The notes beneath the pieces are model-generated. The model searched no databases, was not told the DNA's origin, and saw nothing but the letters and a program-made list of their open reading frames with translations. 64,000 bases of DNA from Acidobacteriaceae bacterium (GTDB lineage: Bacteria; Acidobacteriota; Terriglobia; Terriglobales; Acidobacteriaceae). The DNA is taken from the NCBI GenBank assembly GCA_035944135.1, contig DASZBM010000002.1, forward strand, positions 1,612,001 through 1,676,000, written 5' to 3'. Positions 7,688 through 45,808 of the stretch are shown piece by piece. Both the position numbers and the translations under genes were made by a program. Position 1 is the stretch's first letter. Every line of letters starts with the position of its first letter.

Positions 7688-8743
7688 TCAGGATTTTTTG
7701 AGGATATCGCGCAGGCGGGCGATGATTTTGGCGACCTGCGCGTCGTTGTGGTAGCCGCTGCGCTCGGCCCGGACGCGGCCGGCGGCGGCGATGCGGGTGC
7801 GGGAGGCTTCGTCGGGAAGATAGCGGCGGATTTTTTCGACGCATTCCTGGATGCCCTCGAAGAAGACTGCCTCTTCGTCTTCGACGAAACGGGCGAGGTG
7901 GCCGGGGGAGCGCTCGACGAGCAGGAAGCCTTCGCATGCGGCGATCTCGAAGCTCTTGTGCGCGAACTCGTCGTGGTTGGAGTGGGTGAGAAAGCTGAGG
8001 TTGATTTTGGCGCGCCAGATGGCTTCGCGGTAGTCGCGGCCGTAGAGTTCCCTGCCCGTGTAGATGGCCTGCTGGGCCTCGGGTGTGAGGCGCTCACGCC
8101 AGACGGAGCTGCCGGAGATGGTGACGGGGAGGCCGAATTCCTTCCAGAGGCGGGTGAGAAAGCCGGCGCGGTCATCGTACGGCGTGCCGATGAAGGAGAC
8201 GCCGCTGGTGCGGTCGGCGTCGCTCCAGCCGGGGGGCGGCGGGAAGTGGATGGTGGGTTCGTATGCGGTCTGGATTTTGAGGACGTCGCGGGCGCCGTGC
8301 TCGCGGTATTCGAGGACGTTTTTGTCGCGCTGGACGACGTGGAGATCGAAATGAGTGAGGTCTTTTTTGTAGAGACGCCAGCCTGGGTCGCCACGGACGC
8401 CGAAGACGTTGTCGATCATGTAGCTGACGCTGACAATGCCCATGCGGCGGAGTTTGCCGAGGATCCGGGGCTGGAGGGAGAGGAGCTTGTCGGCCCAGAA
8501 GATGTCGGGGCGCTCCCGTTCGGCGGCGGCGAGGATGTCGCGGTTGAGGCGCGTGACGCCGGGGCCGACCTGGGCGCGGTGAACGATTTTTTTGACGAGC
8601 GCGCTGGAGGGTTCGTACTCGTAAGCGTTGATGGGGATAACGGTGTGGCCCTGGCGCTCGAGCGCCCAGAGGCGGTAGAGCGAGGAGTCGTTGGGCGAGA
8701 GGCCAGAGGCGTAGAGGATTTTTAGCGGGCGTTCGGCAGGCAT
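7688..8743 (-). CDS. CgeB-like glycosyltransferase
   Basis: About 351 residues of a GT-B-type glycosyltransferase related to the spore-protein CgeB/DUF3880 group. The N-terminal LKILYASGLSPNDSSLYR begins the first Rossmann-like half. The C-terminal half contains HKSFEIAACEGFLLVERSPG followed by FVEDEEAVFF, the donor-binding signature of this group. It probably transfers a sugar from a nucleotide donor to an envelope or exported acceptor; donor and acceptor cannot be named. I prefer the ATG at 8743, seven bases after the stop of the upstream MgtE-domain gene, with GAGGG upstream. A GTG at 8761 would overlap that gene by 11 bases. Confidence 0.82.
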   Translation of the reverse strand: MPAERPLKILYASGLSPNDSSLYRLWALERQGHTVIPINAYEYEPSSALVKKIVHRAQVGPGVTRLNRDILAAAERERPDIFWADKLLSLQPRILGKLRRMGIVSVSYMIDNVFGVRGDPGWRLYKKDLTHFDLHVVQRDKNVLEYREHGARDVLKIQTAYEPTIHFPPPPGWSDADRTSGVSFIGTPYDDRAGFLTRLWKEFGLPVTISGSSVWRERLTPEAQQAIYTGRELYGRDYREAIWRAKINLSFLTHSNHDEFAHKSFEIAACEGFLLVERSPGHLARFVEDEEAVFFEGIQECVEKIRRYLPDEASRTRIAAAGRVRAERSGYHNDAQVAKIIARLRDILKKS

Positions 8744-41027: not shown

Positions 41028-41047
41028 TCTCAACCTGATCAGCAGGA

Positions 41048-41080
41048 AAGGCAGACTCGTCGAGTCTGCCTTTTCCTTTT
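41048..41080 (+). terminator. Intrinsic terminator of the M1-like gene
   Basis: A perfect stem (AAGGCAGACTCG and its complement, centre at 41060) followed by TTTTCCTTTT, 20 bases after the stop codon. Confidence 0.9.
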
Positions 41081-41203: not shown

Positions 41204-41439
41204 TAGGGGCTTACGACACCGTTGCTGTGTTGAACGCAGTTTATGCATCGGCCACGGTCGAAGACCATCTACGCGCGTATGAATTCGTAATGAAGATCGA
41301 TTACGCCGCGACAGGTATGTCCAGGCACCGACACTCTTCGAATCACCCATCGCGTCGTGTGCCGTCGTGATGGAATGAAACTCATTCGGAGCTCCACAGG
41401 AAAGCACCCGGATATCCACACAACTCAATCGATTCGCAC

Positions 41440-41469
41440 TTGCATGCACAGGGGCGCGATCCGTAATGT
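41440..41469 (+). promoter_or_regulatory. Candidate promoter for the tandem-hairpin transcript
   Basis: TTGCAT (41440-41445) and TAATGT (41464-41469) are spaced by 18 bases, close to a sigma-70 layout, and would start transcription near 41476, just before the first repeat unit. The match is only moderate. Confidence 0.35.
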
Positions 41470-41487
41470 CTGTCCAACTGATGAACG

Positions 41488-41880
41488 AGCAGTAAGTCGG
41501 AAGTGAATCGCTGAAGAGGCAGACGAACCCAGCAGCCGGCGCAAGTCGGAAGTTGATCGAAAGCAACTACAGAGGATGAGCGGAAGATTGAGGCTGGAAG
41601 TCGGTCGAAGGCAAAAGGCCTGAGGACGGAGCGCTCGACGAGAGTCGGGAGAGCCAGCCACAGGAAGCCGGAAACCAAGGCACCCGACGCAAGTCGGAAG
41701 AAGCCGGGAGACCGGACGGTTCGAAGGAAGAAGCGCCTGGCGCAAGTCAGGAAGCTGGCCAACGGGAGAGCCGGAGGATTTGAGCGCGCGGCGCGAGTCG
41801 CTAACTCAACCGAAGGCGGAGACGAAGGATGCGGCACCCGGCGCAAGTCGGGAAGGCTGGCCAACGGAAAGCCGGAGACG
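41488..41880 (+). repeat. Degenerate tandem repeat, 8 units of about 50 bp
   Basis: Consensus near the core is CCnGGCGCAAGTCnGGAAG followed in the best units by CTGGCCAACGGnnAGCCGGA. Units 6 and 8 are closest to each other; units 1, 3 and 7 are the most diverged. The period varies from 44 to 55 bases. Confidence 0.7.
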
Positions 41881-41916
41881 GGATCTGCCACACTGCGAGA
41901 TTGTCAACGATGAAAG

Positions 41917-41949
41917 CGCCAGAGGCTTCGGCCCCTGGCGTTTTCGTTT
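41917..41949 (+). terminator. Strong intrinsic terminator with UUCG loop
   Basis: A 10-bp stem (CGCCAGAGGC / GCCCCTGGCG, one A-C mismatch) with TTCG tetraloop followed by TTTTCGTTT. It ends the tandem-hairpin region; no protein gene lies upstream on this strand for 890 bases. Confidence 0.88.
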
Positions 41950-41979
41950 GTGGCGCGGATTGCTCCTTCGTGTGTTGTC

Positions 41980-44488: not shown

Positions 44489-45808
44489 CTAATCGTTGTC
44501 GGGCGGCGAGTGGTCCTTGTTGGCTACGAAAAATGACGGCTTGAATGTCACCGGAACCTGGGTGTACGGCTCAGGTGTTTGTGTGTAGTCGAAGCAGTCC
44601 GAGAAGTCGTCGGCGTTCACATCGCGTTGGCCGAGGCTCGGTAAGTTGAAGACCTCTTCGGTGTATTTGAGGAAGCCGCTGAACTCGTGAACCTGGTGCG
44701 AGACGTAACCGTGTTTCGCGTAAGGCGAAACGATGATGAGCGGAACGCGGAAGCCGAGGCCCATGTTGTCGACCTGCGGCGGGGGAACGTGATCGTACCA
44801 GCCTCCCCAATCGTCCCAGCTGATGAAGATTACGGTGGAGTCCCAGAACGGGCTGGCCCCGATGGCGTTCACGATGTTTGCAACCCAGTCGGGACCTTCT
44901 GAAGTCTGGCCTGGACCAGCGTGATCGGAGTAGGTATACGCCGGCACAATCCACGTAACCTGAGCCAGCTTGCCGGCCGCAATGTCGGTGAGCACCTGAG
45001 GCGCGGGCGAGATGACATTGTTGGACCAGTCAGGACCATAACGGATGTGCTTGATCGCCTGAAATGCGGACCAGACGCCGCCGCCTAGTGCCCAGCCACC
45101 TGTGGCGAGCGGCGGAGCGTAGTACTTCCACGTGATGCCCTTTGCGTCCAGAGTGTCGGCGATCGTTTGATAGTCAAAGCAGGGGAAGACGCCGGGGAGG
45201 TCTGTTCCGTTAGGGCCGATCAGAGCTACGGTCGTTGTCGGCTTGGCGTCGCATCCCCACTGATCAGTTACAGGAGCGGGATTTTCATCTGCACCCTGAG
45301 ACTGACCGGCAATCATGTACTGGTGCGCGACAAAGCTCGGACCGCTGTTGGACTGAAACATGCGGTCGCCGAAGGTGTAGGCCTCGCCGAGCGTGAAAAG
45401 CGGCACGGTTTCAGACTGCGGTACATAGGCTAGCGCAAGGTTCGCTACAGGATAGTCCGTGGTGACGTGCCCGAAGTTATCCATTAGCCCGTTGTCATAG
45501 TCGGCAAACCATCCGGGGTGGCTGTGATCGAGGTCTGATCCCTGCTCAAACGGAATCGGCTGCAGCGGGACGGATTTGCCCTTCTGCATCGCGGACTGGG
45601 CGGTGTCGGCGCCGGGAAAGCCGTTGAACAGGTTGTCGGTACTGCGATTCTCCTGCATGATCACGACGATGTGTTTGATCACCGTCGCATTCGTTGGCGG
45701 CGGCGTGGTCGGTGTCTGCTGACTCGGACCGGTGGAGCATCCCTGGAGCAACAAGAAGCCGAGTGAGAAGCCGAAGGCAATTCCTGCGTGGTGTATGTGC
45801 CGCAACAT
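44489..45808 (-). CDS. Phospholipase-C-type phosphoesterase lipoprotein
   Basis: About 439 residues. An N-terminal signal ends in LLLQGCSTG, a lipobox, so the protein is probably lipid-anchored at the outer or inner membrane. The rest is a PF04185-type phosphoesterase (alkaline phosphatase superfamily): VVIMQENRSTDNLFNGFPGA holds the N-terminal metal and nucleophile region, DLDHSHPGW follows, and SWDDWGGWYDHVPPP and HQVHEFSG carry the C-terminal metal ligands. Relatives are phospholipases C and acid phosphatases; the substrate here is unknown. ATG 45808 has GAGGAAAG just upstream; the frame's TTG start five codons earlier overlaps that site. Confidence 0.9.
   Translation of the reverse strand: MLRHIHHAGIAFGFSLGFLLLQGCSTGPSQQTPTTPPPTNATVIKHIVVIMQENRSTDNLFNGFPGADTAQSAMQKGKSVPLQPIPFEQGSDLDHSHPGWFADYDNGLMDNFGHVTTDYPVANLALAYVPQSETVPLFTLGEAYTFGDRMFQSNSGPSFVAHQYMIAGQSQGADENPAPVTDQWGCDAKPTTTVALIGPNGTDLPGVFPCFDYQTIADTLDAKGITWKYYAPPLATGGWALGGGVWSAFQAIKHIRYGPDWSNNVISPAPQVLTDIAAGKLAQVTWIVPAYTYSDHAGPGQTSEGPDWVANIVNAIGASPFWDSTVIFISWDDWGGWYDHVPPPQVDNMGLGFRVPLIIVSPYAKHGYVSHQVHEFSGFLKYTEEVFNLPSLGQRDVNADDFSDCFDYTQTPEPYTQVPVTFKPSFFVANKDHSPPDND

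Follow-up and report, generated by a model that had tools for sequence, protein, structure and literature searches.

Comparison of homologous loci shows that a row of repeated hairpins in a soil bacterium of the Acidobacteriaceae forms, as read from sequence, an RNA gene of its own whose promoter and terminator are conserved. The candidate RNA, located in a 64-kb window (the whole stretch of DNA analyzed), would be a transcript of ~470 bases whose predicted fold is a series of like hairpin rods. This RNA family appears to be new and, within the genomes searched, is restricted to a single family of Acidobacteriota. Since the relatives each have one copy with its own promoter and terminator, the array probably has a genuine regulatory or scaffolding role rather than being a chance pattern. 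The features of the locus are given below, with bit scores from R2, a covariance model built from 88 rods (window rods 2 to 5 included, rods 1 and 6 excluded).

41413-41419, + strand: ATCCACA element 5′ of the promoter core, seen in the window; most of 37 homologues have a similar ATCCACA/TTCACA at an equal distance
41433-41451, + strand: promoter core TTCGCACTTGCATGCACAG, consensus TTTGCACTTGCATnCACAG, from near-invariant columns in 37 homologues
41440-41445, + strand: putative -35 element TTGCAT within the promoter core, from comparison of homologues
41464-41469, + strand: putative -10 element TAATGT, 18 nt past the putative -35, from the alignment of ten leaders and from 37 homologues
41476-41949, + strand: putative noncoding RNA, ~474 nt, from comparison of leaders and terminators, with the start estimated from the -10
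41479-41500, + strand: 5′ strand of closing helix P1 (matched ends outpair swapped ends), with TGATGA at 41479-41484, GCAG at 41489-41492, and AGTCGG, holding the first AGTC, at 41495-41500
41519-41566, + strand: rod 1, GCAA loop; 30.2 bits, outside the R2 training alignment
41570-41617, + strand: degenerate unit holding the AGTC of 41599; R2 matches it weakly (6.6 bits, 41579-41614)
41618-41665, + strand: rod 2, GAGA loop; 27.5 bits, among the 88 training rods
41667-41714, + strand: rod 3, GCAA loop; 26.1 bits, among the 88 training rods
41720-41768, + strand: rod 4, GCAA loop; 22.3 bits, among the 88 training rods
41771-41818, + strand: rod 5, GCGA loop; 24.3 bits, among the 88 training rods
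41821-41869, + strand: rod 6, GCAA loop; 26.0 bits, outside the R2 training alignment
41893-41906, + strand: 3′ strand of P1, CTGC at 41893-41896 and TTGTCA at 41901-41906, from the end-pairing test
41908-41949, + strand: putative terminator, a hairpin with a UUCG loop and then a T-rich stretch, from predicted folds; its CGCCAG...CTGGCG recurs in homologues

Neighboring genes encode, according to Pfam, an M1 peptidase-domain protein, a TrkA-domain ion channel, and LpxB, and there is no tRNA in the 64-kb window. A strong hairpin followed by a T-rich stretch at 41047-41079, directly 3′ of the M1 peptidase-domain gene, is probably the terminator of that gene.

Promoter, ends, and length of the candidate RNA

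Leader and terminator were both found by pattern in 37 RNAs, taken from 25 of the 38 carrier genomes and from 12 chosen contigs. Across these homologues, TTTTGCACTTGCATnCACAG was almost unchanged and TAnTGT lay mostly 18 nt past TTGCAT; we read TTTTGCACTTGCATnCACAG/TAnTGT as a likely -35/-10 promoter overlapped by a putative regulator site. Many loci of one genus (g9) had an additional upstream CACCA-TGGTG dyad. At their 3′ ends, the RNAs carried a hairpin around CGCCAG...CTGGCG and then a T-rich stretch. The distance from promoter core to terminator was 315 to 1,195 nt in these 37 homologues with both ends found; because it is counted from the promoter core, the RNAs would be ~40 nt shorter.

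An earlier sequence-only reading of this DNA had proposed a structured RNA at 41476-41950, with a moderate promoter in front and a strong UUCG terminator at its end. The proposed extent nearly equals that of the putative transcript, and a strong + strand UUCG hairpin does end the run, with the same sequence in relatives; a simple terminator scan reports none. A + strand promoter is indeed evident in front when homologues are compared, but a sigma-70 consensus scan gave one site only, on the - strand. As simple scans returned neither a + strand promoter nor a terminator, comparison of relatives was needed.

The two ends of the RNA are predicted to pair with each other. UGAUGA...G[C/U]AG at the 5′ end has its partner at the 3′ end, directly before the terminator, and in the 37 RNAs matched ends reached -20.5 kcal/mol, compared to -18.5 kcal/mol for swapped ends (6 of 20,000 permutations were as good). 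Among clear cases, GUAG was matched by CUAC nine times and by CUGC five times, and GCAG by CUGC in 10 of 10; the remaining 13 of the 37 RNAs fell outside these classes. From this end pairing and the rods, the predicted transcript would be a closed ring of rods.

A regulon sharing the promoter core was considered and rejected: with ≤2 mismatches allowed, all 10 genomes scanned had the core at their RNA locus, and 3 of these had one extra site. One near-copy with 2 mismatches (L186; G316:C48:221363-221381) lies upstream of a gene for an HTH_3-domain regulator, which might be coregulated with the RNA or be there by chance. The other extra sites that we viewed were, by eye, unlike the RNA locus.

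Structure of the rods and selection on pairing

The sequence-only reading had described eight tandem hairpin units of ~50 nt, each with a core AGTC flanked by complementary arms. AGTC occurs at exactly the eight positions claimed (41495, 41544, 41599, 41643, 41692, 41745, 41796, and 41846), yet the count alone is weak evidence because two other window sites (near 44587 and 15399) hold seven AGTC per 475 nt. The complementary arms exist as well, with the "core" forming the 3′ side of a GNRA-capped stem, e.g., CCCGAC-GCAA-GTCGGA. The structured-RNA interpretation as such is supported, but the number and boundaries of the units had to be revised. R2 found six clear rods at 41519-41869 on the + strand, the next-best window match having an E value of 0.13; with filters off and 601 bases searched, two extra weak matches appeared (E = 0.31 and 0.61). 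Six of the AGTC copies lie in rods, but the one at 41495 belongs to the helix that closes the 5′ and 3′ ends, and the one at 41599 is part of a unit that lacks a proper tetraloop hairpin. The true unit, a rod of ~49 nt closed by its flanks, is longer than the short hairpin claimed.

That the unit is one long rod follows from a comparison of pairing partners. Sequences flanking GNRA hairpins paired better when matched (-12.1 kcal/mol) than when swapped (-9.0 kcal/mol; 78 cases). No such gain was seen for the halves of the stretches between hairpins (-8.45 versus -8.47 kcal/mol), and a local second hairpin in each unit was rejected on this basis. In the predicted rod, two small internal loops rich in purines interrupt the stem, and a GNRA tetraloop caps it. 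GNRA hairpins of at least 4 pairs numbered 201 on the RNA strand and 2 on the opposite strand, with a shuffle mean of 22 (32 of 38 RNAs); G007 had none, and G260, G358, and G173 had one each. GNRA made up 332 of the 509 hairpin loops in minimum-energy folds of the 37 RNAs, and rods were spaced ~49 nt apart in many of them. The predicted fold of 41476-41950 reached -190 kcal/mol (z = -3.75), a stability equaled by 0 of 100 shuffles. The short RNA of G018 gave a z of -8.2, and the minus strand of G007 folded slightly better than the plus strand.

Covariation was examined in an alignment (A3) of 88 rods with a GNRA loop, ≥4 pairs, and a neighbor at 45 to 53 nt. It holds at most 4 rods per RNA (90 were drawn, and two L136 rods that did not fold as rods were dropped) and omits six near-duplicates (G286, G354, L148, L154, G353, and L155). 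Paired cells amounted to 63.1%, versus 53.6% in shuffled alignments, and cells changed on both sides to 228 versus 136; neither value was reached by any of 500 shuffles, which keep relatedness. Since the rods were chosen by their GNRA hairpin, the tip pairs are biased, and the middle and basal pairs are unselected. Every covariation measure fell when the partner strand was slid. One of the five measures was weak, with 31 of 500 shuffles reaching the observed number of pairs changed on both sides. In seven orthologues of 907 to 922 nt, a joint fold of -327 kcal/mol showed compensatory change in 38 of 267 pairs. The rods vary considerably in sequence, with a mean column identity of 54%. As judged from these alignments, rod structure is under selection; covariation, on which the sequence-only reading could have failed, exceeds both shuffled and slid controls.

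These results bear on the view that the locus has no RNA function and arose by chance, from the decay of a coding gene, or as a selfish or palindromic repeat. The copy number of the unit varies, long frames run on the minus strand (e.g., 169 amino acids at 41382-41891), and stretches with seven AGTC occur elsewhere in the window, all of which such a view would accommodate. It is nevertheless very improbable in our judgment: there is one locus per genome, promoter core and terminator are kept, the 49-nt period is not divisible by three, and pairs change in a compensatory manner. In addition, and as the sequence-only reading had expected, the five frames of at least 60 amino acids over 41476-41950 had no Pfam match.

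Distribution and comparison with known RNAs

Among the many weak matches of a blastn search against 61 genomes, those in G018, G025, and G005, of the window's genus, were taken as true relatives; they have a 5′ block and a 3′ hairpin in common. The pattern of the 5′ block matched 14 of 300 genomes of the family; four matches look like chance, and ten are leaders of the rod-array RNA (G000, G005, G007, G018, G025, and five of genus g9). R1, a sequence model of these leaders that the ten match by construction, identified 28 of 300 family genomes (G261 being doubtful) and 37 of 249 genomes of the order. With G261 (E = 0.004) left out, carriers number 38 genomes including that of the window, each with one locus at an E value of ≤0.01 and all in the same family (genera g1, g9, g51, and g61). 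The existence of homologous arrays, an outcome on which the structured-RNA reading could have failed, thus supports it. In g9, 19 of 20 sampled genomes carry the RNA, assuming that the membership list and the R1 search drew on the same 300 genomes (their handles agree). In the window's genus, 7 of 28 genomes carry it with E values of <1e-8, and every other match had an E value of ≥0.07. An R1 scan of the phylum matched 3 of 247 genomes, all already-known carriers.

R2 gave 229 matches with an E value of ≤1 in 37 of 41 loci (585 kb), two of them outside the RNAs by coordinates, and no such match in G260, G027, G358, and G223. Where it finds any rods, there are 1 to 14 per RNA. Scanning the class at an E value of ≤0.01, R2 matched 19 of 299 genomes, of which 13 were noncarriers; two of the latter scored better (E = 1.6e-4 and 3.5e-4) than the window's best rod (0.0026). 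Single R2 matches are therefore unspecific genome-wide, and only clusters of neighboring matches are telling. G056, from another family, had three single rod-like matches on C138, C28, and C164 (best E, 1.6e-4) and no array.

A pattern scan of named genomes returned 35 stretches. Twenty-seven have Acidobacteriota titles, among them Occallatibacter savannae AB23, a carrier that is a named strain, and two Granulicella metagenome-assembled genomes; three end ≤51 nt from the site. One with a Rhodanobacteraceae title may correspond to carrier G348, and seven from other phyla lacked a leader or terminator match. Plasmids searched with the window RNA and phage records searched with the G316 RNA gave no match, and none of four pattern matches in viral contigs had a rod array. 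One phage-like contig (L208:227-283 / L161:12949-13005; IMGVR_UViG_3300036790_000802) has the same promoter block (CACCA-TGGTG dyad, ATCCACA, and TTTGCACTTGCATCCACAG) ahead of a 49-amino-acid frame (L208:381-530) whose product would resemble a small membrane protein. No rod array follows, and the contig has perhaps captured a host promoter.

Neighboring genes vary among the 38 loci, and a fixed partner gene was rejected, none being constant. A transporter-like protein is encoded close to the RNA at 11 of 38 loci; we take it to be a DHA2-type MFS protein, a name that is unproved because its first 70 residues, scanned alone, matched nothing in Pfam.

Rfam yielded no family at gathering score, either for the window or for seven homologous loci, as the sequence-only reading would have it for a new RNA. 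Matches below that score were weak and differed between homologues; the CsrC model matched the terminator alone (E = 1.9). Like CsrB, CsrC, and RsmZ, the rod-array RNA would be a stand-alone RNA of some hundred nucleotides with repeated hairpin sites, its own terminator, and a regulated promoter, but its loops are GNRA and theirs are GGA. None of 21 genomes, 13 from the window's genus and 8 from another family, with carriers G000, G005, and G007 among the 21, had a match to CsrA (PF02599) in a search whose controls matched in 3 of 14, which makes a CsrB-type sponge hardly tenable. GGA occurs 24 times in the window RNA, as it does in another stretch of the window, and is found in 3 of 13 predicted hairpin loops of the window RNA and in 28 of 509 across the 37 RNAs. 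A CsrA sponge was set aside on the CsrA count, with g9 outside the sample, and on the rarity of GGA in loops. Two other partners were considered. TROVE (Ro60-like) proteins are patchy in the family (8 of 20 genomes), and their presence in 5 of 13 carriers versus 3 of 7 noncarriers showed no link. Hfq was found in all 20 genomes and was uninformative (19 have three Hfq-domain proteins and one has a single one).

The rod-array RNA resembles OLE, ROOL, and GOLLD, which PMC12286853 presents as large, highly structured bacterial RNAs of a single gene with roles unknown or partly known. It differs in having no match at Rfam gathering score, a variable number of like rods, and a location on Acidobacteriota chromosomal contigs, with the window free of tRNA genes. 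Acido-1 (RF01686) and Acido-Lenti-1 (RF01687), structured RNA candidates from Acidobacteria according to PMC2864571, share its phylum, and neither matched the window or the seven loci at gathering score. Repetitive extragenic palindromes are likewise repeated hairpin-forming units outside genes; rods, in contrast, cluster at one locus per carrier, inside a transcript-like unit, and are not scattered. The literature matches listed, from a search with supplements, preprints, and most subscription journals outside its scope, contain no report of the rod-array RNA. The family would add a structured RNA to a major soil phylum for which we found little literature on RNA regulation; the term "acidobacter" is absent from the main texts of PMC11109978 and PMC8632094.

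Possible functions

Our leading reading, held tentatively and rated somewhat below an even chance, is that the rod-array RNA works in trans, its many sites titrating an RNA-binding protein. CsrB and RsmZ operate on this principle. Each rod would hold one copy of the same RNA-binding protein; once the promoter is switched on, the array would soak up the protein and free its other RNA targets. Partner protein and binding site would both differ from those of Csr. An RNA that acts in trans by capacity is suggested by the many like sites in variable number, the varied neighbors, and the strict retention of the promoter core, and this favors titration. A range of 1 to 14 rods suits capacity and not a fixed shape, and a single locus with no constant neighbor, a near-invariant promoter, and the g9 dyad suit a regulated trans-acting RNA. 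Against titration, the tested partners CsrA, TROVE, and Hfq do not fit, the 54% column identity of the rods is unusual for one strict protein site, and some homologues have few or no recognizable rods (G260, G027, G358, G223, and G007). If titration is true, a previously unrecognized RNA-binding regulator would be indicated in these bacteria, whose searched genomes gave no CsrA.

The main rival, which we consider unlikely though by no means negligible, is that the RNA is a scaffold or assembles with RNA only: GNRA caps would dock into the helices of other rods, within or between molecules, to give a compact particle. GNRA docking is established, and OLE, ROOL, and GOLLD build compact particles, each in its own way. 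Self-assembly would account for the predominance of GNRA among the loops (332 of 509), the near-constant 49-nt spacing, and ends joined by a closing helix, and RNA-only complexes of large bacterial RNAs have a precedent in those reported in PMC12286853. The widely varying number of rods among relatives is, however, a poor fit to a fixed particle. If self-assembly is true, the RNA would be a natural scaffold made from simple repeats. With a probability that we place only just short of even, the family is a new modular RNA class whose capacity is set by the number of GNRA rods, and which either titrates a global RNA-binding protein, as a separately evolved Csr-like system, or docks into an RNA-only particle.

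A regulator that targets mRNAs by base pairing through single-stranded or conserved parts, with the rods serving stability or Hfq-type handling, seems quite improbable. Hfq was present in 20 of 20 genomes searched, and a highly conserved additional block is present in some g9 RNAs, but by eye this block is absent from the window RNA, most of which is paired in the predicted fold. The block, GAATACTCATCG...CGATGCAAGGTTCGG, occupies A2 columns 311-350 in a group of g9 RNAs (e.g., L088, ~8580-8625) and may be a separate binding domain.
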